The notes under the pieces were generated by a model. It searched no databases. It was not told where the DNA came from and worked only from the letters and a program-made list of their open reading frames with translations. A stretch of 64,000 nucleotides of DNA from Chloracidobacterium sp. (GTDB lineage Bacteria > Acidobacteriota > Blastocatellia > Chloracidobacteriales > Chloracidobacteriaceae), in assembly GCA_025057975.1 (NCBI GenBank), contig JANWUV010000008.1, positions 62,001-126,000 on the forward strand, given 5' to 3'. The position numbers were made by a program, and so were the translations under genes. This document shows, in pieces, positions 4,739 to 64,000 of the stretch. Position 1 is the stretch's first letter, and every line of letters starts with the position of its first letter.

Positions 4739-5401
4739 TCAGTCGATGAGCTTCTCCATGATTTCTTGCGCCGACGCGCCTTCGCGCCGCCAGAACTCAG
4801 CCGCATTGACCTTTTTCTGAGAACCGACAATAAACTTACAGCAGTCATTGCCCATTGAGTAGCACTGCACCTCAATCCCTCCGCGCTCCTCACGGTCAAA
4901 GACGCTGAAGACGCCGGCAAACATGCCGGCATACATATAGCAAACTGGCTTACCGACTTGCTCCATTGCCTTTGCCACGGCGGAGTTCTTGATGGTGATA
5001 AAAACCATGCCTTGCTTTTCAAAGCTGAAGTCAATTGCCCATGCACCCCAGCCTTCAGCTGTCAGCGGCCACCACCAAGATTCGAGGACGAACTTGCGGT
5101 TCATTTGCCAGATATCGAGTTTACCGCCGCCGAACTCGTGGCGCATTTTTTCAGCAAAGCGCTTCATGTCACTGACGCCCCACTCGTAGCCGCATTTGTA
5201 CATTACAAGGTTAGAGGCGTCACCAATTTCTTCATCCAGTCCGGCATGGAGACTGGTGATAAAGTCTTCTGACGCATAGACGCCGCGCTGACCGTCGCGG
5301 AGACGAATCGTGCGGGTGCGCGGATCACGCGAAAGAAAGTCTTCTGGGACAAAGTAATTGTGGTAATTTTTGATGCCGCCGTCAGCGACGTTGATGGCCA
5401 T
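4739..5401 (-). CDS. V4R-domain protein, second copy
   Basis: A 220-residue V4R protein. The C-terminal Cys-rich strand pattern (REERGGIEVQCYSMGNDCC followed by KFIVG) is the V4R signature, and an aromatic stretch (ESWWWPLTAEGWGAW) precedes it. ATG 5401 is preferred over GTG 5410 because AAGGAG lies eight bases before the ATG. It differs clearly from the copy at 2851-3495; paired V4R genes are also a feature of the Synechocystis slr0144-slr0152 operon. Probable role: binding a tetrapyrrole or related ligand in the cytosol. A 141-bp gap with an A7T5 tract (5468-5479) separates it from the upstream ferredoxin gene and could hold an internal promoter. Confidence 0.87.
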   Translation of the reverse strand: MAINVADGGIKNYHNYFVPEDFLSRDPRTRTIRLRDGQRGVYASEDFITSLHAGLDEEIGDASNLVMYKCGYEWGVSDMKRFAEKMRHEFGGGKLDIWQMNRKFVLESWWWPLTAEGWGAWAIDFSFEKQGMVFITIKNSAVAKAMEQVGKPVCYMYAGMFAGVFSVFDREERGGIEVQCYSMGNDCCKFIVGSQKKVNAAEFWRREGASAQEIMEKLID

Positions 5402-5542
5402 ATATGTCACTCCTTGATGGAAATGGCTATTGACGCCGTGTGTGCTATACGCAAGTCCGCTTGGGAGAAAAAAATTTTTAGGGACATCAGTGAACGCCGG
5501 CGCTAAGGCAATGCTTAAGGCCGAACTTGAGCTTAGGAAGCC

Positions 5543-6016
5543 TTACGTAGCCGACGCCGCCAGTTTAGTCATATCAAAGTCTTCGCCTTCGAGTTCTAGG
5601 ATTCTGGACTTTGTAATGATTTTCCCGCGATCAATCAAGACGCGACCATCGCGCGGGTGAAGGATCGGCACTTCAGCGCGCTTGCCGATGAGCGCCCGCA
5701 AGTCGTCAATGCTTTGCACATACATCCCTTCAGGCAACTCAACGACGACGCCGTCGCCGATGATGCGCGCCTGACAGGACAACCGTGAACGGGCAGTCGC
5801 GCCGGTGATCGTCCCAAGTGTTCGAATTTCGCGTTCCGTACGCGGGGTTAGGGATTGTTCGCCCTTGATGACGAAAACATGGCAGGTTGCACATAGTCCC
5901 ATACCGCCGCACGCCATCGCCACCTCACACTGTGAAGCTAACAGCGTGTCGAGCACCTTGGTGTCCGTCTTAACCGAAATTGTCCTATTGATTGGCTGTA
6001 ACGTGATGCTTTTCAT
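5543..6016 (-). CDS. [2Fe-2S] ferredoxin with C-terminal extension
   Basis: A 157-residue 2Fe-2S ferredoxin. Cluster ligands are Cys36, Cys42, Cys45 and Cys81 (CGGMGLCATC and RLSC). The C-x5-C-x2-C spacing is that of adrenodoxin/bacterial ferredoxins rather than the C-x4-C-x2-C of plant-type photosynthetic ferredoxin. Residues about 98-157 are an extra segment not found in simple ferredoxins. It starts at ATG 6016, five bases after the FNR-like gene, so the two are certainly cotranscribed. Likely role: one-electron carrier to or from a partner in this cluster; the partner is unknown. Confidence 0.92.
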   Translation of the reverse strand: MKSITLQPINRTISVKTDTKVLDTLLASQCEVAMACGGMGLCATCHVFVIKGEQSLTPRTEREIRTLGTITGATARSRLSCQARIIGDGVVVELPEGMYVQSIDDLRALIGKRAEVPILHPRDGRVLIDRGKIITKSRILELEGEDFDMTKLAASAT

Positions 6017-6021
6017 AGCAA

Positions 6022-6717
6022 CTAACTCCAGCGCTCGACAGTAATGTTTGACTTTGGGATTCCGGCTGACTGGAAGGTTTGCTGATAAAACTTTATCTCG
6101 GGATACTCACCTGCAGCATAAAATTTTGTATTTGGGTTTTCGAGATACAAGCTTCTCAGCATAACCGGTGTCACACGCCCCAGCCCACCAACCCATCCAA
6201 CAGGACGTGTTGGCTGGTTCAGGATTAGTATGCGCGTAAGTGGGCTGTTTTTTTCAAAATGCTTGAATTCATCATCGTAGAGGATTTGGCTTGAGTCAGT
6301 AAGTTCATGAAAGAGCGTAAGGCGGCGTTCTGGCTGACGAGTGAGAATGTAGTAGAAAAAGCTGCGTGCAGCTGGGATACAGTAATCCATGCCAATGAAG
6401 CAAACCGGATCTAAACTGTCAGTTTGTAACTTGAGCTGTCCCATTGGCTCAGTGACATGGATAATGTCACCAACTTTTACTTGGTCGTAAAATTGCGTTC
6501 CGAAATTGCCAATTCGTTTGACTGTTACCTGAAAATACTTTTGGTCATGGGGAGACGAGCTGAAAGTTAGGCAAGCTTGTCGTTCAGCATTGAGATGGAA
6601 AACGGCAAACTGTCCCGGTGTAAAGCTGAAAGGGTATTCTCCGAAGTCAAAAATAAACGAGCGTACATCTGTGGTTTCTTGAATAATGCGGCAAACAGTA
6701 TATGGTCGCGTGCTCAT
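6022..6717 (-). CDS. Ferredoxin-NADP reductase-like protein with degenerate cofactor motifs
   Basis: A 231-residue protein with the overall FNR pattern: an N-terminal beta-barrel with FTPGQF, and a C-terminal domain ending in a YAAGEYP...YQQTFQSAG region. The usual flavin motif RxYSxxS appears as CLTFSSS (49-55), lacking Arg and Tyr. The pyridine-nucleotide motif GGxGxxP appears as GMDYCIP (109-115). It may therefore have lost flavin or NAD(P)H binding, or bind them differently. It is the first gene of the pigment-type cluster, 45 bp after the coiled-coil gene. Its DNA is visibly AT-richer than its surroundings (6121-6180 is 26/60 G+C), which may point to transfer. Confidence 0.75.
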   Translation of the reverse strand: MSTRPYTVCRIIQETTDVRSFIFDFGEYPFSFTPGQFAVFHLNAERQACLTFSSSPHDQKYFQVTVKRIGNFGTQFYDQVKVGDIIHVTEPMGQLKLQTDSLDPVCFIGMDYCIPAARSFFYYILTRQPERRLTLFHELTDSSQILYDDEFKHFEKNSPLTRILILNQPTRPVGWVGGLGRVTPVMLRSLYLENPNTKFYAAGEYPEIKFYQQTFQSAGIPKSNITVERWS

Positions 6718-51029: not shown

Positions 51030-52142
51030 TCACACAAAGTTGGGGTTGTTGCTCGGATGGCGCAGCGTCCAGAGCATTTTGTTGATGGGATGGCAGCGGC
51101 AAATCGGCTGGCACTCGTCTACGTTGATGGCGGCGATGACTTGCCGCCGTCGCTCGCCTTCCCAGATTTCCTTGAAGGTCTGTTTGCTGAGATCGCCAAG
51201 GCAGAATTCTTCTTGGCCGCGCGTCTGCGAGCAGTAATACACCTTCTTGTTGGCTTCAATCACCGGAAAGAACGTGGCGTAGCATTTCCGATAGGCGCTG
51301 CGCTCCAAATCCGGCGACAGAACGCCGGCGAATTGATCCTCCTTGACGAAGACGCGAAACGTCTCGGTCTCGTACATTTGCTTGGCGGCGCGGGCGCGAT
51401 AGAGCGCGTCAAGGTAAAAATCGCGGTCGTAAAACTCGCTGGATGACTTCGGGTGCAGGATGACCGGCTTGATCTGGAAGTAGTCAATGCCGGTTTCCCG
51501 GACGCGCCGCGCAGCCTCCTCGACTTCCGCGAGGTTTGTTGGCTCAACGGCAATTTGCGCGCCAATCTGCACTTTTGAACCCTGCCGACGCTTTTCCTCC
51601 GCCAAGGTGGTCAGATTGCCGAGCACTTTCTCGAAGTCATTGACCTTGTGAATTTTCTCGCGAGTTTCAGGCGTACCGGCGTTGAGCGAGATACGAATCC
51701 ACGTGCAATGCCGGACGACCACTTTGGCTTTTTCCGGCGTCAGTAGGCCGCCATGCGTAATTATCGCCGATTCCACTCCTTTGTGGGCGGTGTATTCGAC
51801 AAACTCCATGAAGTTTGGGTTGACGAACGGCTCGCCGCTCCCCGAAAAAATCATGCTCTTCGTACCGAGCGTGACGAGTTCATCCAGCAGCGTCCGGTAG
51901 AACGGGAGCGGCATGATGCTCGCGTCCGGGTTGGCTTTCTTGGATTTGTCGTCGCCTTTGTGCGAGCCGAAATAACCGCCGTGCATGCACCACGTACAGA
52001 AGTGGTTGCAGATGGTTGAGGGACTAAGTTCCATCGTAATCGGGTAGACGTTCTTGCCCTGCCACCAGGCATACATCACGTCCATGTGCGTGAAAAGTTT
52101 GAGAGGCGAGAAAACATCCGTTTTGAGGTCAGGTTGGTGCAT
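51030..52142 (-). CDS. Radical SAM protein with SPASM-type C-terminus
   Basis: A 370-residue radical SAM enzyme from ATG 52142. The cluster motif CxxxCxxC is CNHFCTWC. GSGEPFVNP is the SAM-binding GGE-like strand (Ser replaces Gly), and RISLNAGT follows. The C-terminus has a SPASM-like Cys set (KCYATFFPVIEANKKVYYCSQ, EEFCLGDL, CQPICRC), suggesting auxiliary FeS clusters. Operon with a GT39-like enzyme; substrate could be a carbohydrate or peptide. Longer starts to 52358 have no supporting family similarity. Confidence 0.9.
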   Translation of the reverse strand: MHQPDLKTDVFSPLKLFTHMDVMYAWWQGKNVYPITMELSPSTICNHFCTWCMHGGYFGSHKGDDKSKKANPDASIMPLPFYRTLLDELVTLGTKSMIFSGSGEPFVNPNFMEFVEYTAHKGVESAIITHGGLLTPEKAKVVVRHCTWIRISLNAGTPETREKIHKVNDFEKVLGNLTTLAEEKRRQGSKVQIGAQIAVEPTNLAEVEEAARRVRETGIDYFQIKPVILHPKSSSEFYDRDFYLDALYRARAAKQMYETETFRVFVKEDQFAGVLSPDLERSAYRKCYATFFPVIEANKKVYYCSQTRGQEEFCLGDLSKQTFKEIWEGERRRQVIAAINVDECQPICRCHPINKMLWTLRHPSNNPNFV

Positions 52143-52359
52143 GGCCGGGTGGTGTTCCTTCCGTGTTGAGCAAGCGAGCAAGCGTGTGAATTCGCACGCA
52201 TCATTTGGAGCAGCCGCCAGGCATGTCAAGTCGCGTCTGTGGGCGGCCGCTGAAACCGAACCACGCCGACCACCGGAAAAGCCATACGGCATGGAAGAAA
52301 ATCGCCGGCTGCCGCGTCTAATAGGGTCAAAAGTCATGTTCTGAGGAAGCTCCCCCAAC

Positions 52360-52974
52360 GTGAACGCCGAAGACCTGTCCCTTGCCGTCCCCGTTGGTTG
52401 CCTGTCGCCGCCGCCGGAGATGACCGTCGGCGTTTCGTACGCGCTGCTTGAAGACTGTCGGCGCGGCGACGTTGAGGCTTTTCACCGGCTTTTCCTCATT
52501 TGCAAAGACCGGGTGTACAACATCGCCTACCGCTTCGCCGGCAATGAAGCCGAAGCGGGCGACATCACCCAGCGCGTGTTCGTCAAGCTCTTTACCGAGC
52601 TTCGTCGGTTTCGGCAGGACGCGCAGTTTTCCACTTGGCTGTACCGATTGGTTGTCAACGCCTGCCTGGACGAATACCGCCGGCGACGACGTTTCACACC
52701 GTTGGAAGCCCTGTCGCAACCGGCCGCCGCGACGGAAGCGAACTTGGAAAGCCGGATTCTGCGCGCTGAACTCCACCAAGCGGTCTGGCAGGCCGTCGCC
52801 GAATTGTCGCCGAAACTCCGCCTCCCAGTCGTTCTCAAGTACGTCGAAGGACTTTCCTACGAAGACATTGCCGCCGCGCTCGGTTGCTCGAAGGGCACCG
52901 TGGCGTCACGGCTCAACCGCGCCCACCGCGCACTGGCCGGCAAACTGGCCCATCTGCGTCATGTTCTGGATTAG
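52360..52974 (+). CDS. ECF-type RNA polymerase sigma factor
   Basis: A 204-residue sigma factor (GTG 52360; 184 if ATG 52420 is used). Region 2 (DITQRVFVKLFTELRRF, FSTWLYRLVVNACLDEYRRR) and region 4 with a helix-turn-helix (YEDIAAALGCSKGTVASRLNRAHR) are clear. Its 3' end overlaps the start of the anti-sigma gene by 14 bp, so the two are coupled. It is expected to transcribe its own operon, including the peroxidase and cytochrome genes downstream. Confidence 0.95.
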   Translation: MNAEDLSLAVPVGCLSPPPEMTVGVSYALLEDCRRGDVEAFHRLFLICKDRVYNIAYRFAGNEAEAGDITQRVFVKLFTELRRFRQDAQFSTWLYRLVVNACLDEYRRRRRFTPLEALSQPAAATEANLESRILRAELHQAVWQAVAELSPKLRLPVVLKYVEGLSYEDIAAALGCSKGTVASRLNRAHRALAGKLAHLRHVLD

Positions 52975-53905
52975 TTCGATACTTACGCGCTTGCTGCGGC
53001 GCGACGCGCGGCATGTCGCCCATCTGCTGACGGCCTACGTCCACCACGAACTTGCGCCGCGTCAAGCCGAGCGCGTTCGTCGCCATCTGTCGCAGTGTCC
53101 GGCATGCGCCGAAGCGTACAACGCCGTCCGCGCCGTCGCTGCGTCCGCTGAAGCGCCGGTACGCCGCGCTGCGCCGAACGCGCTCTGGCCGGCGATCGCC
53201 AAACAGTTGACCAGGGCTGACGCGGCGGAGCAACCCGTACGGCGGATGGTGCAATGGCCGGCCTTCGCCGCCGTCGCCGTGATGTTCCTCGTCGGCGGGG
53301 TCTGGTGGTGGGAGCACACAGCCGACGAACAGAAGCCGGAAACATTGCGTGTGTATCCGGCGTGCGGGCCGCAAACCACGCTTGAACTGGCGGCGCGCGA
53401 CCTGCACCGCGACTGGGCCGCCGGTACGCTTCGGTTCGAGATTGAAACCGACCAGCCGCCGGCGCTGACCGACTGGCTGCGGCGAACGGCAGGACTGGAC
53501 GTGCCGTTGACCGACCTCCCACCCGGCGTCCCGGCCGCTGTTCCGGCGCGCGCCTGTCCCAAGGGCGCCAAGCGCGTCACTGTCGGCGACCGGCGCGGCG
53601 TCATGGTGGGGTACATCTTGGACGGCGCCCCCGTCACGCTCCTCGTCACGCCTGCCGCCGAGTCGCCTGGCGTTGCTCAAGCTGCACAGATGATGAACGG
53701 TTTTGTGTATCGCGCCGACCTACAGGCGCAATTGACGTGGCTGACGTGGACGCGCGACGGACAGACCTACGCGCTGGTGTCTTCCCTGTCCGTCGGCGCG
53801 CAAAGTTGCCTGATTTGTCACCAGCGCGATGAGCGCCGCCGCCAGATCGCCAAGTTGGGCGACCTGACGACGGCGGAGACCACGTTTGGGGAGAAACGGC
53901 GATGA
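52961..53905 (+). CDS. Anti-sigma factor with zinc finger, membrane helix and periplasmic CxxCH haem motif
   Basis: A 314-residue membrane anti-sigma factor. The N-terminal zf-HC2 anti-sigma motif is His42-x3-Cys46-x2-Cys49 (HLSQCPAC). One membrane helix (97-117) follows, then a periplasmic domain of about 190 residues ending with Cys283-x-x-Cys286-His287 (CLICH), the covalent c-haem attachment motif. ATG 52961 overlaps the sigma gene; its stop overlaps the peroxidase start (ATGA). A haem on the sensor side suggests redox, oxidant or NO sensing; zinc and haem are inferred from motifs. An earlier frame start gives only an overlap with the sigma gene. Confidence 0.9.
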   Translation: MFWISSILTRLLRRDARHVAHLLTAYVHHELAPRQAERVRRHLSQCPACAEAYNAVRAVAASAEAPVRRAAPNALWPAIAKQLTRADAAEQPVRRMVQWPAFAAVAVMFLVGGVWWWEHTADEQKPETLRVYPACGPQTTLELAARDLHRDWAAGTLRFEIETDQPPALTDWLRRTAGLDVPLTDLPPGVPAAVPARACPKGAKRVTVGDRRGVMVGYILDGAPVTLLVTPAAESPGVAQAAQMMNGFVYRADLQAQLTWLTWTRDGQTYALVSSLSVGAQSCLICHQRDERRRQIAKLGDLTTAETTFGEKRR

Positions 53906-55068
53906 GCAAGAAACGTTTGCGTCAGTGTTCGGCGCTGCTGTTCGGCGTCGGTCTGTTTGTGTGGTGGGTGGCGGCGTCCGCGCCGTCTCCTGCGGAGCAG
54001 GGGCGGCGGCCGCCGGTTTCCATCCCGCGTGGGTTGCCGGCCGATTTCTGGGAGGCGCTCATTCCGGAGGACAACCCGATCACTGAAGAGAAAATCGCCC
54101 TTGGACGTGATTTGTTCTTCGACAAGCGGCTCTCCGCCGACGACTCCATCAGTTGCGCTGTCTGCCACGATCCGGCGTTGGCGTTTACCGACGGCAAGCC
54201 GGTGGCGGAAGGCATCGGCGGCAAACGCGGCGCGCGCAATACGCCGACGGTGCTTAACGCGATGTTTTACAGCGAACAGTTCTGGGACGGCCGCGCCGCC
54301 ACCCTCGAAGAGCAGGCGCTCCAACCCATCGTCAACCCGCTGGAAATGGGCATGCCGTCGGTGGAAGCCGTTACAAACAAGCTCAAGGGCATTCCCGAAT
54401 ACGCAGCCCGGTTCCAGAAAGTGTTCGGACGGCCGATCAACGCCGCCGATATTGCGCGCGCCATCGCCGCCTTTGAGCGCGCGCAACTGTCCGGCGACGC
54501 GCCGTTTGATCGCTTCATTGCCGGCGACAAGCAAGCCATCAGCGAAGCCGCCCAGCGAGGCTGGCAGTTGTTTCAGGGCAAGGCGCGGTGTCTGACCTGT
54601 CACGGCTTTAATCCCACCGCGCCGTTCTTCACCGATTTCCAGTACCACAACATCGGGGTCGGCATGCGCGCGACGCACAACTTTGAGTCGCTGGCGCGCT
54701 CCGTGCAGCGGCTGGCGCAGCAGGGCAAGCTCACCCCGCAGGAGATTGACCGGCTGGCCTTGACCGAAGGCTTCTCCGAACTCGGCCGCTTCCTGACCAC
54801 GCGCCAGCCGAAGGATTTGGGCGCGTTCAAAACGCCGGGGCTGCGTGATGTCGCCCTGACGGCGCCGTACATGCACGACGGCAGCCTGAAGACGCTGCGT
54901 GAGGTCATTGAGTTTTACAACCGGGGCGGCGAACCCAATCCGAACCTCGACGGCGGCATTGTTCCGTTGAACTTGTCCGAACAGGAAATGGCCGACTTGG
55001 AGGCGTTTTTAGAAACCCTGACCGGTGACGCCGCCCGCCGCGCCGCCGCGCCGGCGACCCGTCCCTGA
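53902..55068 (+). CDS. Dihaem cytochrome c peroxidase (CcpA/MauG family)
   Basis: A 388-residue periplasmic dihaem protein. Signal sequence (about 1-30). Haem motifs CAVCH (Cys85-His89) and CLTCH (Cys230-His234). Family blocks: LGRDLFFDKRLS, ARNTPTVLNAMFYSEQFWDGR, LGAFKTPGLRDVALTAPYMHDGSLKTL (axial Met region). It probably reduces hydrogen peroxide or oxidises a protein residue. ATG 53902 is coupled to the anti-sigma stop, so the peroxidase belongs to the sigma regulon. Confidence 0.95.
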   Translation: MSKKRLRQCSALLFGVGLFVWWVAASAPSPAEQGRRPPVSIPRGLPADFWEALIPEDNPITEEKIALGRDLFFDKRLSADDSISCAVCHDPALAFTDGKPVAEGIGGKRGARNTPTVLNAMFYSEQFWDGRAATLEEQALQPIVNPLEMGMPSVEAVTNKLKGIPEYAARFQKVFGRPINAADIARAIAAFERAQLSGDAPFDRFIAGDKQAISEAAQRGWQLFQGKARCLTCHGFNPTAPFFTDFQYHNIGVGMRATHNFESLARSVQRLAQQGKLTPQEIDRLALTEGFSELGRFLTTRQPKDLGAFKTPGLRDVALTAPYMHDGSLKTLREVIEFYNRGGEPNPNLDGGIVPLNLSEQEMADLEAFLETLTGDAARRAAAPATRP

Positions 55069-55100
55069 CAGCCACTTCACCAAACACAGGAGGAACCGTC

Positions 55101-56222
55101 ATGCTGTACCTCAAATGGAAAGCGCGTGAGGAACGCTATCGCGCCGAACGGACGGACTTCTTCGCCGCCCTGAAGCGACTTGACCGCCGTTCTTTTGTCA
55201 AAATTGCCGCGTTGGCCGGTGGTTACGCAGCGGCGCGCGGACTGGCCCCACATTCGTTTCAACTTGTGGATGTCGTCCGAGCGGCTGAGTCGGACAAGCC
55301 GGCCTTCCGCTTTGCGTACATTTCGGACACCCACCTCTACGAACGGACGCTCAACGAACGCTTTGTCAAAGCCGCCATGCGCGCCGTCGAAGACGTTAAC
55401 GCGCTTGATCCGCAGCCCGATTTTGTGCTGTTCGGGGGCGACTTGGCGCAACTCGGCAAGCCCGGCGAACTCGAACTCGGCAAGCAAATTCTCGCCGAAC
55501 TCAAAGCGCCGGTGAAAATGATTGTCGGCGAGCACGACTGGTTTCTCGACATGGGGGACAAGTGGAAGGAACTGTTCGGGCCGCCCCAGTATTCGTTTGA
55601 CCACAAGGGCGTTCACTTCATCGTTTTGATGAGCGTCAACGAGAAGGACTTCTGGACGGCGCGCAAGATGACGCCCGAAGAGCGTATGCAAACCGTCGCC
55701 GGTTTGGACAACGCTCTGCAAAGCCGCTTTGAAGTCGGCGCGGAGGGACGCGCGTGGCTGGCGAAGGATTTGGCGACCGTTCCGAAGGATCGTCCGATCA
55801 TCGTCTTTTCGCACTCGCCGCTTTACAAGTACTACCGTCCGTGGAACTTCTGGACGGAAGACGCCGAGGAGGTGCAAGCGTTGCTGGCGCCGTTCAAGTC
55901 GGTGACGGTCATTCACGGCCACACCCACCAAATGCTGACGAATCGCATCAAGAACATCCACTTCCACGGCATGCTGTCCACGGCGTGGCCGTGGCCGTAC
56001 GCCCCGGAGGGACTGCCGAAGCTGACTGTCCAGATGGATCGGGCTGATCCGTTCGATGAGGCCGACGGGACGGGTCACGGGGTCATTGACGCGCTTCAGG
56101 GCGGCTACGTTGACGCGCACTACACGCTTTGGAGTCGGAACCCGATCAAGGTCGCCAAGGCGTATCTGGAGTCGTGGGGGAAAACGGCCGTTCCGCCCGT
56201 CCCACAGTTTCCGTCCTATTGA
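55101..56222 (+). CDS. Tat-exported calcineurin-like metallophosphoesterase
   Basis: A 373-residue protein. Tat signal DRRSFVKIAALAGGYAAA (residues 28-46) then metallophosphoesterase motifs: SDTHLY, FGGDLAQ, GEHDW (usually GNHE/D), SHSPLY and GHTHQ, giving a two-metal site. GGAGG precedes ATG 55101, 32 bp after the peroxidase. Substrate could be a phosphoester or a non-phosphate ligand; the link with cytochromes suggests a periplasmic redox or haem-stress process. Confidence 0.93.
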   Translation: MLYLKWKAREERYRAERTDFFAALKRLDRRSFVKIAALAGGYAAARGLAPHSFQLVDVVRAAESDKPAFRFAYISDTHLYERTLNERFVKAAMRAVEDVNALDPQPDFVLFGGDLAQLGKPGELELGKQILAELKAPVKMIVGEHDWFLDMGDKWKELFGPPQYSFDHKGVHFIVLMSVNEKDFWTARKMTPEERMQTVAGLDNALQSRFEVGAEGRAWLAKDLATVPKDRPIIVFSHSPLYKYYRPWNFWTEDAEEVQALLAPFKSVTVIHGHTHQMLTNRIKNIHFHGMLSTAWPWPYAPEGLPKLTVQMDRADPFDEADGTGHGVIDALQGGYVDAHYTLWSRNPIKVAKAYLESWGKTAVPPVPQFPSY

Positions 56223-56256
56223 GCCGATTGAGCCAAAACCTGCGAGGAAGAAGCTT

Positions 56257-56910
56257 ATGTGGTCAAAAAAGTCAGCCAAGGTTGTCATCGTCGCTGGAGC
56301 CGTCATTGGTTGCGCGTTGGTTGCGCCGACGCTCAAACACGTGCATGACGCAACGGTGAAAGCACAGCAACCGGTGCAGCGTGCGCCGTTGCCGCGTCAT
56401 CCCGAAGTAAAAAGTCCCGATGGGTCGTTGGTCGTCCAGTTGTGCGATGGTGAAACGGCGGTCGCCGTCGCCGGCGTCAAGGAAGGCGACGTGCTTCCGC
56501 CTGAGACGGCGCGTGCGGTCGCCCATGAACTCATGACGCGCCACGCCGAACAGCAGGAAAAGCAAGCTTCAAAGTGGTCGGCGCGCGACCGTCTCATTTG
56601 GGAGCGCGAGCAGGCGCGGGTCGTCAGTGAAGGCGACAAGCTCTTTCACGACTGGAAGGCATTGGGCGGCACAATCGGCATTTCGTGCGACATGTGCCAT
56701 CCTGACGGCTCGAACACGCACCCGGAGACCTACCCAAAGTTCCAAACGCAGCTCAAGCGAGTCGCCACATTGCGCGACATGATCAACTGGTGCATTGAAA
56801 ACCCGATGAAGGGTCAGCCGTTAGCCGCCGACGACGCGCGGATGATTGCGCTGGAAGCCTACATCACGGCGCGGCGGAAGGGCGTCCCGTTGGAGCCGGG
56901 GAAACACTAA
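56257..56910 (+). CDS. Monohaem cytochrome c (SoxA-like helical domain)
   Basis: A 217-residue cytochrome. N-terminal signal-anchor (KVVIVAGAVIGCALVAP), a helical linker, then the haem motif CDMCH (Cys144-His148) and a helical tail with LRDMINWCIENPMKGQPLAADD, similar to SoxA/SoxX-type cytochromes. GAGGAAG precedes ATG 56257; it follows the phosphoesterase by 34 bp and ends the redox operon. It is the likely electron partner of the dihaem peroxidase. Confidence 0.88.
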   Translation: MWSKKSAKVVIVAGAVIGCALVAPTLKHVHDATVKAQQPVQRAPLPRHPEVKSPDGSLVVQLCDGETAVAVAGVKEGDVLPPETARAVAHELMTRHAEQQEKQASKWSARDRLIWEREQARVVSEGDKLFHDWKALGGTIGISCDMCHPDGSNTHPETYPKFQTQLKRVATLRDMINWCIENPMKGQPLAADDARMIALEAYITARRKGVPLEPGKH

Positions 56911-57631: not shown

Positions 57632-59260
57632 TCAGCTTACTGTAGCCTTGCGATTACCTGCTGTGACCACGGACGGTTCCACCCCGCAAGCGCGAAATAG
57701 ACCCAGACCATAGTGCGCGGCATAACCAAGAAGTAAAGGGCCTTGGATCGGCTCGGTGAGATGGAGGCGCAATCCGTAGCCTACGTCCATTTTGGGTGGA
57801 ACGCCGCCACGAACTCGCCGGCGGACAAAATGGCGGAGAGATCGGGTCAATCCAAGATCAATTTCGACACTGGCGGCTTTGGGCAATCGCCGCGAAGCTA
57901 GTTCGGCTTGCACTTGACCTACGAGTGTGTCTTTGCCCTTCGTTTTCAAGAATCGTGGCGGCACAAACGGCGTCATACTTTCCCAAACGTGGGCGCCATC
58001 GGGTGGACCAAGAATTTTTTGGATTTCAATATTGAGTGGGGGCGGCAATCGTCGCAGCATCTTGAGATCGCCGCTACCGACGACAGCGACTTGGAGATCA
58101 CCAACGCCGCCTTTCGTCCACGTTCGCCTGAGGGTTCTAATGGCTTGCTGGGCGCTATCACCAAGCCCCATAGCCGCATAAATGATAATGTGGTCGAGAC
58201 GACCATCGCCATCCAGATCAACCGGAATTGTGTGCGCGTGCCTGTGGCGCTCGTGAAGGGGACGGTCAAACTCGTCTTTTCCCGTAAGTTCAGGGCAGTT
58301 TACGCGCCGGCCATTTCCAAGACGACCGATGATGGCGCGATGGAACAACTCCGCTTGCGGTAGTGTTCGTGTAACAGACGGCAGCGCCGACCGATTCCCA
58401 CTTGGGGTGGTGATGGCTAGAAGCATCGTCGTAACCGGTTGGGCAGAAACCCGTCGCGGTGCGGCCGGGACTCCAACTTGCAGGGCATCGCTCCGTCGCC
58501 AGTAAAGGATGCGTCGTGAACCCGGCGGCTGCGACCAGCCGTGGCCTTTCCACCAAGCCGTGTCCTTGGTCAGACAGGACAGCAGATCAGTCGGGTAAGG
58601 CTCGACGGCTTGTGTCTGCTTCTTCTTCACGTTTGCAGTCTGTTTTTGGCCTTGAAAGGGTCGCAACGCTTCTTGGACTTGAGCCTCGCGCCACTCTTCG
58701 TAGTCCGCCGGTGAAATGGCGGCCATCAGGGATACCTGTTCCCAACCGGGGACGCGATGCTCACCCTCTTGGCAGGGCACCGCGTTCCACTCAATGCCGG
58801 GGCCGTCGCGCAAGAGTTGGGCCTCCACCCAACTCTCACTGCGCCCCAGATAGCCCAGCGCGCCGACCAGTTTCTCAAGAAGCTCCGTTTCCTCAGCGTT
58901 GAGTTCACATGGCCAGTGAATCAGTAGTTTCCCGTCGCCGACGTTAGCCCAAGTGTCGAAGACGAGCGTTGTTTGCTCCCGTCCTTTGGCAAGGGCGCCA
59001 ACTGGCATGAAGTGCCGACTGTGGGCCGTGCCGGCGGCTGGTAAACAATAGGATGGCAGCACCGCCGCCAGCTTATTGATCAAGCTCCGGGCGACTGGTG
59101 GCATCTCGCTCCAACCCTGGCTGGTGAAGCCACGGGCGATGAGCGCGCGCAGCAATCGCCACGGACTCGGTGGCCACTCGATGAGGCCTTCGTTGACATG
59201 GTGCCCCCACGGCGTGGCATGGTAACGCCCGCCGGGAAACCAGAGTTTCACGGTCGGCAT
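57632..59260 (-). CDS. csb2: Type I-G CRISPR-associated protein Csb2 (Cas5-Cas6-like)
   Basis: A 542-residue Csb2, the I-G (I-U) protein regarded as a Cas5/Cas6 fusion that builds the crRNA handle and processes pre-crRNA. N-terminal RAMP block LWFPGGRYHATPWGHHVNEG and SPWRLLRALIA, and C-terminal Cas6-like Gly-rich loop LLGYAAHYGLGLFRACG. AAGGAG lies seven bases before ATG 59260. It starts 11 bp after csb1 on the same strand. Its Arg-rich segment (RSLRHFVRRRVRGG) may bind RNA. Role in I-G is by family. Confidence 0.93.
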   Translation of the reverse strand: MPTVKLWFPGGRYHATPWGHHVNEGLIEWPPSPWRLLRALIARGFTSQGWSEMPPVARSLINKLAAVLPSYCLPAAGTAHSRHFMPVGALAKGREQTTLVFDTWANVGDGKLLIHWPCELNAEETELLEKLVGALGYLGRSESWVEAQLLRDGPGIEWNAVPCQEGEHRVPGWEQVSLMAAISPADYEEWREAQVQEALRPFQGQKQTANVKKKQTQAVEPYPTDLLSCLTKDTAWWKGHGWSQPPGSRRILYWRRSDALQVGVPAAPRRVSAQPVTTMLLAITTPSGNRSALPSVTRTLPQAELFHRAIIGRLGNGRRVNCPELTGKDEFDRPLHERHRHAHTIPVDLDGDGRLDHIIIYAAMGLGDSAQQAIRTLRRTWTKGGVGDLQVAVVGSGDLKMLRRLPPPLNIEIQKILGPPDGAHVWESMTPFVPPRFLKTKGKDTLVGQVQAELASRRLPKAASVEIDLGLTRSLRHFVRRRVRGGVPPKMDVGYGLRLHLTEPIQGPLLLGYAAHYGLGLFRACGVEPSVVTAGNRKATVS

Positions 59261-59271
59261 CGCGGGCTCCT

Positions 59272-62694
<3,423 letters not shown>

Positions 62695-62698
<4 letters not shown>

Positions 62699-64000
62699 GG
62701 GTTGCTCTGTGCAGCCAAGGCTGGATCAAGGGCTGGATCAGATGTGGTCAACTGAGACGCCCGCGCATCGGCCGCCCGCAGGATCGCTTCAAGAAACGCC
62801 AGCGCGGCCGGGCCGTATCGCTCCAAAAGCCCAATACACCGTTCCCGCCAACTGATTCCGGTTTTCAACGACAAACCAAGTTTCGCCGGTTCTAAAGTGA
62901 GAGTCACTTCCGGGATTGGCTCTTGGTATGGCGCAAATTCGATACTCGGTAAGCGGTCTCCTTCACGAACGCCCCGGATCGGCAGCCCGCGGCCGTCGCG
63001 GTCCCGGTAGTCCTGATCCTTTGGGGCCGCGTGCAGGCCGACCCGTACCTTGCCGTGATGGCTGGCGACGAGATAGGCCACTAGGTCGAAGTCCTCTGCC
63101 GCACACTTCAGCAATCGCTCGACGAGGCAGATTGCCGGAGTTGGCTTGCCGTTGTTGGGCAAAGTGCCTCCCAGTTGGGGGAGCACACTCGCCCACCGGC
63201 CGAGTAGGGCTTCATGCGCCGGATCGTAGGTCTCCAGCAATGCGAACAGGCCAAGGGCACTGGCGAGTTCATGGCGAAACGCCGGCCGGGTTTCGCTGTC
63301 GTCGAGGTATTTATACAGACATTTCTTCGGCCAACAGTCACCGGGAGCCTTTGCCAAGTCCATCCGATCCGGCCTGGTGACGGTTCCGTTGCCGCGTATT
63401 GAGCCTTGAAATGCTGGATGAGCCTTGCCCCAGTCGTGCCAGAGGGCGGCCAATTCAAGAAGGTCTTCGAGCTTCGTAGGAAGCTTCAGTGCTTTGGCAA
63501 TCACTTTTACTTGTTCGGCGACTTCCTTGGCGTGAAACGCGATCGTCTTCCAAGTGTTGAAGCTCAACTGTTCGCCGTCTTGTTGATCGTCGGCTCCATC
63601 CAACAATATTCGTGGAGATGTGCCTTGTGGTCTGGCAATCGGAAGCACCGAAGCAGAGGATTGCGGATCGAATCCGCGCTTCGAACAATAGCCTCCCGAA
63701 TCCGCCGCCACACAGACCACCCGGCCGGGCAATAGCGCCTCGCGTGTCGCCGTCACCCACTCGCCGTCGAGCCAGTCCCAAACCCAAGCGCGTTTCGTCG
63801 CTTTCAGTTTGGACTGGCTTTTCTCACACAGCCAATCTCGGGCCTTCAGAAAGGGGATAGCACACAGTTCCTGTTGGTGTGGCTTGTAACTCTCAGGTGG
63901 CTTATGCGGTGGTTCACCTTTCGTATCGGGAGGAATCTCTAGCCAGAAGACTTGCAAATCTCGCTCCTCACCGGAGCGGATGAATCGGCTGATGTCGAGG
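62695..64000 (-). CDS. cas3: Type I-G Cas3, C-terminal part with HD nuclease domain (5' end outside window)
   Basis: The frame is open to base 64000, so the helicase part lies outside; the first visible residues (LDISRF, then SGEERDLQVFW) continue a larger protein. The TTG at 63957 is therefore not a true start. The HD nuclease domain is at the C-terminus, as in I-G Cas3: FHAKEVAEQV, the HD pair in LWHDWGKAHPAFQG, FRHELASALGL and ASHHGKVR. About 435 residues are visible. It degrades DNA opened by the effector. Stop overlaps the csx17 start (ATGA). Confidence 0.93.

Follow-up and report, generated by a model that had tools for sequence, protein, structure and literature searches.

zf-HC2 domains hold extracytoplasmic function (ECF) sigma factors, and a CxxCH motif in an exported domain is an attachment site for haem c. 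The best-known bacterial sensors of peroxide or disulfide stress, OxyR, PerR and RsrA, work in the cytosol. The locus described here appears to bring the first two of these elements together in a single protein, a transmembrane anti-sigma factor with a c-haem motif. It lies in a stretch of 64,000 nucleotides (hereafter the window) from Chloracidobacterium sp., of the phylum Acidobacteriota (GenBank assembly GCA_025057975.1, contig JANWUV010000008.1, positions 62,001 to 126,000 of the forward strand). The reading that we favour, and hold to be reasonably probable, is that this anti-sigma factor frees its sigma factor when peroxide or a related oxidant reaches a haem in the periplasm, and that the sigma factor then transcribes its own operon.

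The closest functional analogue is the sCache_heme family (DUF3365/Tll0287, PF11845), which includes GSU0582 and GSU0935. Its members, as the main text of the report on them has it, are extracytoplasmic sensors with a covalent c-haem, as the window protein is predicted to be, and its authors suggest that they arose when a non-haem sensor domain already in place received the haem motif by insertion (PMC12889525). The two differ in output, which here is an ECF anti-sigma factor, whereas that main text nowhere uses the terms “anti-sigma,” “sigma factor” or “ECF.” They also belong to different domain families, the window protein scoring 13.7 bits against a cut-off of 24.1 (E 0.084), over residues 265-295 only. 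The CxxCH of sCache_heme lies between strands 3 and 4, whereas here, in the predicted model, it follows the last strand, where the local AlphaFold confidence (pLDDT) is below 50. A relationship to Tll0287/sCache_heme was considered and rejected, the one sign of it being that weak Pfam match under the cut-off. No Cache chain stands among the fold matches listed; Cache folds may simply be unlisted, so this is no proof of absence.

Other known systems share parts of the arrangement. The zf-HC2 transmembrane anti-sigma factors (RsiW and what we take to be the type named COG5662) have the same cytosolic HxxxCxxC domain, one membrane helix and a homologous periplasmic domain, but the 10 non-haem sequences compared here are without CxxCH. 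RsrA and ChrR, the zinc anti-sigma factors for oxidant response, sense via cysteines or zinc; the candidate sensor here is, in contrast, a periplasmic haem, and the NCBIfam models that carry both names score the window protein far under their cut-offs. In its predicted periplasmic fold the window protein bears a likeness, suggestive only, to the C-terminal domain of RseB/MucB, which acts as partner to RseA/MucA. There, the partner is a separate protein; here, the domain belongs to the anti-sigma factor itself and bears the haem motif. Haem also controls an ECF sigma factor via an anti-sigma factor in the HasR/HasS/HasI system, as far as the accessible text of PMC11442138 describes it, but as a signal bound by a TonB-dependent receptor, whereas the haem proposed here would belong permanently to the anti-sigma factor as its cofactor. 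In the open-access literature no c-haem anti-sigma factor is described among the matches listed, to judge from their titles and abstract openings, and the words “heme” and “cytochrome” are absent from the accessible text of PMC7406223.

The operon occupies positions 52360-56910 of the window, on the plus strand, and consists of five genes placed head to tail, whose families were assigned with Pfam and NCBIfam profiles. It opens with an ECF sigma factor of 204 residues with a GTG start (52360-52974; Sigma70_r2 62.9 bits, Sigma70_r4_2 59.8 bits, NCBIfam sigma70-ECF 115.2 bits against a cut-off of 42.9). Directly 3' of it lies the gene of the anti-sigma factor, of 314 residues (52961-53905), recognized as such by its zf-HC2 domain, its homologues and their tree. 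Next comes a dihaem peroxidase of the CcpA/MauG/MbnH superfamily, with a signal sequence and two haem motifs, SCAVCH and CLTCH (53902-55068; CCP_MauG 198.8 bits). This protein falls under the NCBIfam equivalog cut-offs of both MauG and MbnH, and its nearest solved chains are 6e1c, 9qdt and 2c1u. A calcineurin-like phosphoesterase of the Tat (twin-arginine translocation) type follows (55101-56222; Metallophos 65.6 bits), whose leader RRSFVK is Tat-like (Pfam TAT_signal 11.6 bits, under the cut-off of 22.7); its PDB relatives are Phosphohydrolase (2dxl), Rv0805 and Icc protein, the match being confined to the first part. The last gene encodes a SoxA/TsdA-type monohaem cytochrome c with the motif CDMCH (56257-56910; PF21342 SoxA-TsdA_cyt-c 52.9 bits, cut-off 27), which reaches 42.8 bits against the NCBIfam SoxA equivalog, under its cut-off of 110. 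The stop of the sigma gene and the start of the anti-sigma gene overlap by 14 bp (52961-52974), the anti-sigma stop and the peroxidase start share ATGA (53902-53905), and the gaps in the later part of the operon are 32 and 34 bp. Both overlaps, the span of the operon and the motifs of the anti-sigma factor had been given in an earlier reading made from the sequence alone; translation and the profile searches bear them out.

The same sequence-only reading had ascribed to the anti-sigma factor an HxxxCxxC finger, one membrane helix and a CLICH motif, and this anatomy holds as well. The zf-HC2 domain (residues 18-50, positions 53012-53110; PF13490 36.6 bits, cut-off 22.2) would lie on the cytosolic side, with the zinc finger H42-x3-C46-x2-C49. 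A membrane helix is predicted at about residues 99-121 (53255-53323) by AlphaFold and by hydropathy, the peak 19-residue window beginning at residue 96 with a mean of 1.82 (best elsewhere, 1.47 at residue 214). The predicted periplasmic sensor domain (residues 139-287, positions 53375-53821), homologous to the non-haem anti-sigma domain, comes after this single predicted helix, which argues against a cytosolic place for the motif. At its end stands CLICH (residues 283-287, positions 53807-53821), where haem c is predicted to be attached, and the window's genome has cytochrome c assembly proteins (PF01578). The window protein and a relative were modelled with AlphaFold (pLDDT 65.5 and 75.7, respectively); both models show helices followed by an antiparallel sheet, and their zf-HC2 part resembles the anti-sigma domains of ChrR, RslA and RsiW. 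For the periplasmic part, VIA-align puts the RseB/MucB C-terminal domain first, with Z values of 6.5-7.1 (about 7 in both models) and an rmsd of 2.4-3.4 across 82-87 residues; a single MucB entry, though, gets no more than 4.6, and a chain unrelated to these proteins stands at 6.6. Foldseek returned no match for this part at E 0.001 and ranked that unrelated chain first, above RseB. By sequence, hhalign found no similarity of the periplasmic domain to E. coli RseB, and no PDB chain matched this domain at E 1, the anti-sigma matches being confined to the N-terminal part of the protein. The likeness of the modelled fold to RseB/MucB is, of course, suggestive only.

The motif is a family trait. 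Full-length relatives of the anti-sigma factor occur in genomes from across the class to which the window belongs and from further Acidobacteriota classes, and also in one bin labelled Tectomicrobia and one labelled Deltaproteobacteria; four more genomes of the Tectomicrobia bin's phylum were searched, and no relative was found in them. In a sample of 396 genomes of the window's phylum, 32 match the domain model at E 1e-6; among the 29 of these that were examined, 24 have a CxxCH member and five only a CxxCH-less member. The weak matches in G123, G386 and G238 and a second match in G122 were left aside. A scan of genome contigs with the whole window anti-sigma factor as query found nothing; with the domain of a relative as query, 11 loci were found.

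Forty distinct domain sequences were aligned, a set that leaves out the doubly represented loci and L099, a truncated frame that has CLVCH. CxxCH is present in 30 and absent from 10. The 30 with E at or below 1.4e-20 all have it; the 10 weaker ones, at or above 1.3e-11, never do. These sequences were selected by their match to a model that itself includes the CxxCH motif, and a tree was therefore built without the motif columns. In this tree the two sets still split, with support of 99/98, and no motif-less sequence falls inside the motif-bearing side. The aligned Cys, Cys and His are present in 30/30 motif-bearing sequences and at none of these positions in the 10 others. A chance occurrence of CxxCH in the window is rejected by this conservation; the sequence-only reading had named the want of it in orthologues as the result that would tell against a haem sensor, and the motif instead marks a whole clade. 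One side observation is that the closest relative of the window pair, L098 (6490-7371, genome G065), is without the HxxxCxxC finger and retains a haem motif, CMLCH.

With the haem columns excluded, the haem and non-haem domain sets are homologous (hhalign probability 99.6, E 2.1e-24). The motif was thus either gained by an anti-sigma domain that already existed or lost from it. Apart from the three motif residues, the 30 sequences have just three invariant positions, two Trp and one Tyr. One further His is near-constant (26 of the 28 with a letter there) but equally constant in the non-haem sequences; another is found in 26 of the 30, and the window has Arg in its place. Because no fixed second ligand appears among the conserved residues, the distal side of the haem may be open or variable.

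What lies beside these anti-sigma factors was examined in the main group, that is, the 21 haem anti-sigma loci outside the window type (window, L031, L098) and family f16 (L092-L097). Of the 21, 13 adjoin a gene of the peroxidase type, which is MauG-like at nine loci, KatG at two (NCBIfam scores of 1289 and 1268 bits) and another dihaem protein at two, these last proteins having two CxxCH each, no Pfam match and NCBIfam MauG-type matches far under the cut-off. The KatG and other dihaem neighbours look exported, because their N-termini resemble signal peptides by eye. At eight loci the full set of peroxidase, phosphoesterase and cytochrome genes lies divergently beside the sigma/anti-sigma pair, with identities to the window proteins of 55-71%, 64-82% and 43-75%, respectively. 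A ninth, L053, has the peroxidase only, split over two frames (5235-6376), which may reflect decay or an assembly error. Two loci have the phosphoesterase and cytochrome and no peroxidase. None of these genes is visible beside the other six (the contig of one is 4.4 kb long), whose genomes (G007, G010, G020, G024, G036, G039) hold the three-gene module elsewhere.

Co-occurrence can be followed in the same way. Among 58 related genomes, 15 have both a haem anti-sigma factor and a close relative of the phosphoesterase (counts that ignore kinship). Four (G018, G021, G023, G026) have the anti-sigma factor but lack a close relative of the phosphoesterase; KatG or the other dihaem protein lies beside the anti-sigma gene in precisely these genomes. 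In three (G013, G014, G049) the phosphoesterase is present and a haem anti-sigma factor was not found. Four non-haem relatives of the anti-sigma factor (L060 9435-10220, L061 279-1124, L105 7732-8571, L042 17-313) also lie near a divergent phosphoesterase relative, 32-38% identical, and at L105 a cytochrome c-like gene (matches under cut-off) follows it. Because non-haem anti-sigma factors have such neighbours too, the phosphoesterase may predate the haem as a partner of this type of sigma factor.

The linkage is accompanied by a shared promoter. Many of the intergenic regions hold a back-to-back ECF-like element, GGAATAA-N13-GTGTTAT, facing both ways. Its exact form occurs nine times in the 58 genomes, eight times at haem anti-sigma loci; the ninth site lies 340 bp upstream of a gene with a Tat-like leader that matches vanadium bromoperoxidases (E 1e-82). 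In the 396 genomes there are 12 exact sites, against none for the reversed control. Eight are at haem anti-sigma loci, two are elsewhere in genomes with a haem anti-sigma factor (one in front of a cupin gene that lies 2.6 kb away from the anti-sigma gene, one in front of an unrelated-looking gene) and two are in genomes without one. At L092 (4574-6866, G190) an exact site precedes a run of cupin, short-chain dehydrogenase and chorismate mutase-like genes near the haem anti-sigma gene. The exact site in G417 precedes what we take to be a tssK-like gene and is not counted as a target.

A weight matrix was built from 16 sigma-side sites and applied with a threshold of 15. Scores at or above this value occur in 18/21 upstream regions of target genes, against 0.65% of 2622 control windows. 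The near-copy L034 is outside this test, and the bromoperoxidase site was left out of the 18/21 because it was found through the motif itself. All six unlinked modules pass (the one in G010 with a poor -10), and neither of the two modules in genomes without a found haem anti-sigma factor does (G013 10.2, G014 -1.8). On the sigma side, 18 of 27 loci score at least 12 of 14 positions. Six one-mismatch sites away from the loci were examined; they fall within long open frames, at the margins of such frames or ahead of genes that look irrelevant, and were not used. The sequence-only reading had suggested that the phosphoesterase and the cytochrome of the window might complete a response circuit. 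This gains support here, since in other genomes the same three target genes adjoin relatives of the anti-sigma factor, or lie apart from it with its promoter.

The window itself is a special case. The main-group promoter is rejected for it, the best score over the 300 bp upstream of the sigma gene being 9.1, and no site with one mismatch or fewer was found in its genome. The proposed search for an ECF recognition motif yields instead a candidate autoregulatory promoter directly upstream of the sigma gene, GGAAGAA-N14-GCGTCTAAT, at 52293-52322 on the plus strand, a pattern drawn from two sites. The form GGAAGAA-N14-GCGTCTNAT is common to the window and its closest sigma relative, in G065, and these two sites are the only exact matches in six genomes. 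With up to two mismatches there are 75 sites in these genomes against 31 in the reversed control, so inexact sites mean little. The window sigma factor groups with that of G065 (47% identity, SH-aLRT 98) and outside a clade of 23 others (18 main-group, five f16). In the domain tree the anti-sigma factor of the window falls with its counterparts in G065 and G009:C76, with support of 100/99 but on long branches. The phosphoesterase of the window, on the other hand, is 78-82% identical to five from other families versus 64-66% to two from its own, both module trees set the window module outside the group that holds its own family, and six congeners searched have no phosphoesterase. This is most simply explained by acquisition of the module, which then came under another lineage of haem anti-sigma and sigma factor. 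Two sigma lineages with the same type of sensor on the same module argue, in turn, that sensor and module belong together.

The genes that flank the operon lie on the minus strand. Upstream, divergent from the sigma gene, is a radical SAM/SPASM-like protein (51030-52136), for which the NCBIfam matches listed are all under cut-off. Downstream are the Type I-G CRISPR genes Csb2 and Csb1/Cas7 (57632-60282); a CRISPR repeat array is not evident at 60200-64000 of the window.

How might such a system work? In the favoured reading, the ECF sigma factor would be held at the membrane by its cognate zf-HC2 anti-sigma factor, whose periplasmic domain would carry one covalent c-type haem at its C-terminal end. 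Without a signal, the cytosolic zinc finger would bind the sigma factor. The haem would meet an oxidant in the periplasm, for which hydrogen peroxide or some related substrate of peroxidases is the likeliest candidate, and would react with it or be oxidized or ligated by it; the sensor domain would change shape, and the sigma factor would be released, or the anti-sigma factor inactivated or cleaved. The freed sigma factor would then transcribe its own operon, with the dihaem peroxidase, the Tat-exported phosphoesterase and the SoxA-like cytochrome, so that response and sensor would be made together. What makes peroxide the likeliest oxidant is that the targets which recur are peroxidases with chemistries unrelated to one another. 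More generally, we believe, with fair but not full assurance, that this is an undescribed class of haem-based transmembrane transcription switches, in which an anti-sigma domain gained a c-haem, probably once. In Acidobacteriota, and in genome bins that carry the labels of other phyla, the class would control exported peroxidases that are chemically unrelated (dihaem, KatG, vanadium), with at least two sigma lineages on the same peroxidase-phosphoesterase-cytochrome module.

Several observations weigh against this reading. Haem attachment is predicted from the sequence motif, around which pLDDT is below 50, and among the 30 sequences a second axial ligand is not strictly conserved. Gene linkage gives nothing direct on the ligand. 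The six f16 loci (L092-L097) and L098 (G065) adjoin no recognized peroxidase, and L031 (G009:C76) ends at a contig end, with a small cytochrome c following. The promoter loses its specificity once one mismatch is allowed, with 41 sites against 26 in the reversed control in the 58 genomes. Of the 21 target regions, three are without the element (L053, the second phosphoesterase of G028, and L035, where the module is linked); of the 27 sigma upstream regions, nine score under 12 of 14 (L047, L053, L054 and L093-L097, plus L043, where the anchor is misplaced). A single genus supplies four of the six unlinked modules, and the matrix test was not blind, the element having already been seen on both sides of the divergent loci. 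The window promoter, moreover, differs from that of the main group, and its regulation is therefore read from two exact sites.

The same evidence bears on other ligands and other roles for the motif. The haem might be a nitric oxide sensor, as has been proposed for c-haem Cache domains, with the peroxidases forming part of a nitrosative or mixed stress response. The analogue sCache_heme has, according to the part of PMC12889525 available, the properties of a nitric oxide sensor when fused to signalling modules; with no fixed distal ligand, a gas site would stay open; and a beta-propeller neighbour at L054 matches Cytochrom_D1 (63.2 bits, cut-off 25.5), although it scores higher with the lactonase and YNCE propeller models. 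Peroxidases, however, are what recurs beside the anti-sigma genes, and neither a nitric oxide reductase nor a globin was recognized among the neighbours scanned, a part of the whole, which makes this sensor unlikely. The haem might also read the redox state of the periplasmic cytochrome pool, exchanging electrons with the SoxA-like cytochrome or the peroxidase and not meeting peroxide itself. The sensor does share an operon with the genes of both, and the order of phosphoesterase relative and cytochrome c-like gene recurs beside the non-haem relative L105. KatG and vanadium bromoperoxidase, which occur at other sites, are not cytochrome-dependent enzymes, and we consider such a pool sensor improbable.

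Two further explanations would give the CxxCH a different task. It might monitor cytochrome c maturation as a checkpoint, with the apo form signalling failed attachment or the holo form licensing the production of haem enzymes, as the many haem proteins among the targets could suggest. Those targets include, however, a vanadium bromoperoxidase and a metallophosphoesterase, and no maturation gene was recognized among the same scanned neighbours; we give a checkpoint very little credence. Alternatively, the motif could be a disulfide or zinc site through which the anti-sigma factor senses the oxidation of thiols. A precedent exists in RsrA, a zinc anti-sigma factor that responds to disulfide stress, according to the accessible part of PMC4960319. 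Against this stands the His directly after the second Cys in 30/30 motif-bearing sequences, which is the signature of c-haem attachment, together with the exported position of the domain and the cytochrome c assembly proteins of the organism. A thiol sensor is, on this evidence, very unlikely.

Three things lay beyond the reach of the sequence-only reading: anti-sigma factors of this sort form a family, the genes next to them encode more than one kind of peroxidase, and the window's own pair of sigma and anti-sigma factors is a divergent lineage. The promoter and the target list make the idea of a c-haem switch directly testable. If it is true, it would be a second case, in another domain family, of the route that the main text of PMC12889525 proposes for sCache_heme, where a short cytochrome-like motif converts an ordinary sensor domain into a haem sensor. 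A c-haem anti-sigma factor would let the cell read periplasmic oxidants and change its transcription with two proteins, and this would be a new bacterial way of sensing oxidants outside the cytoplasm.

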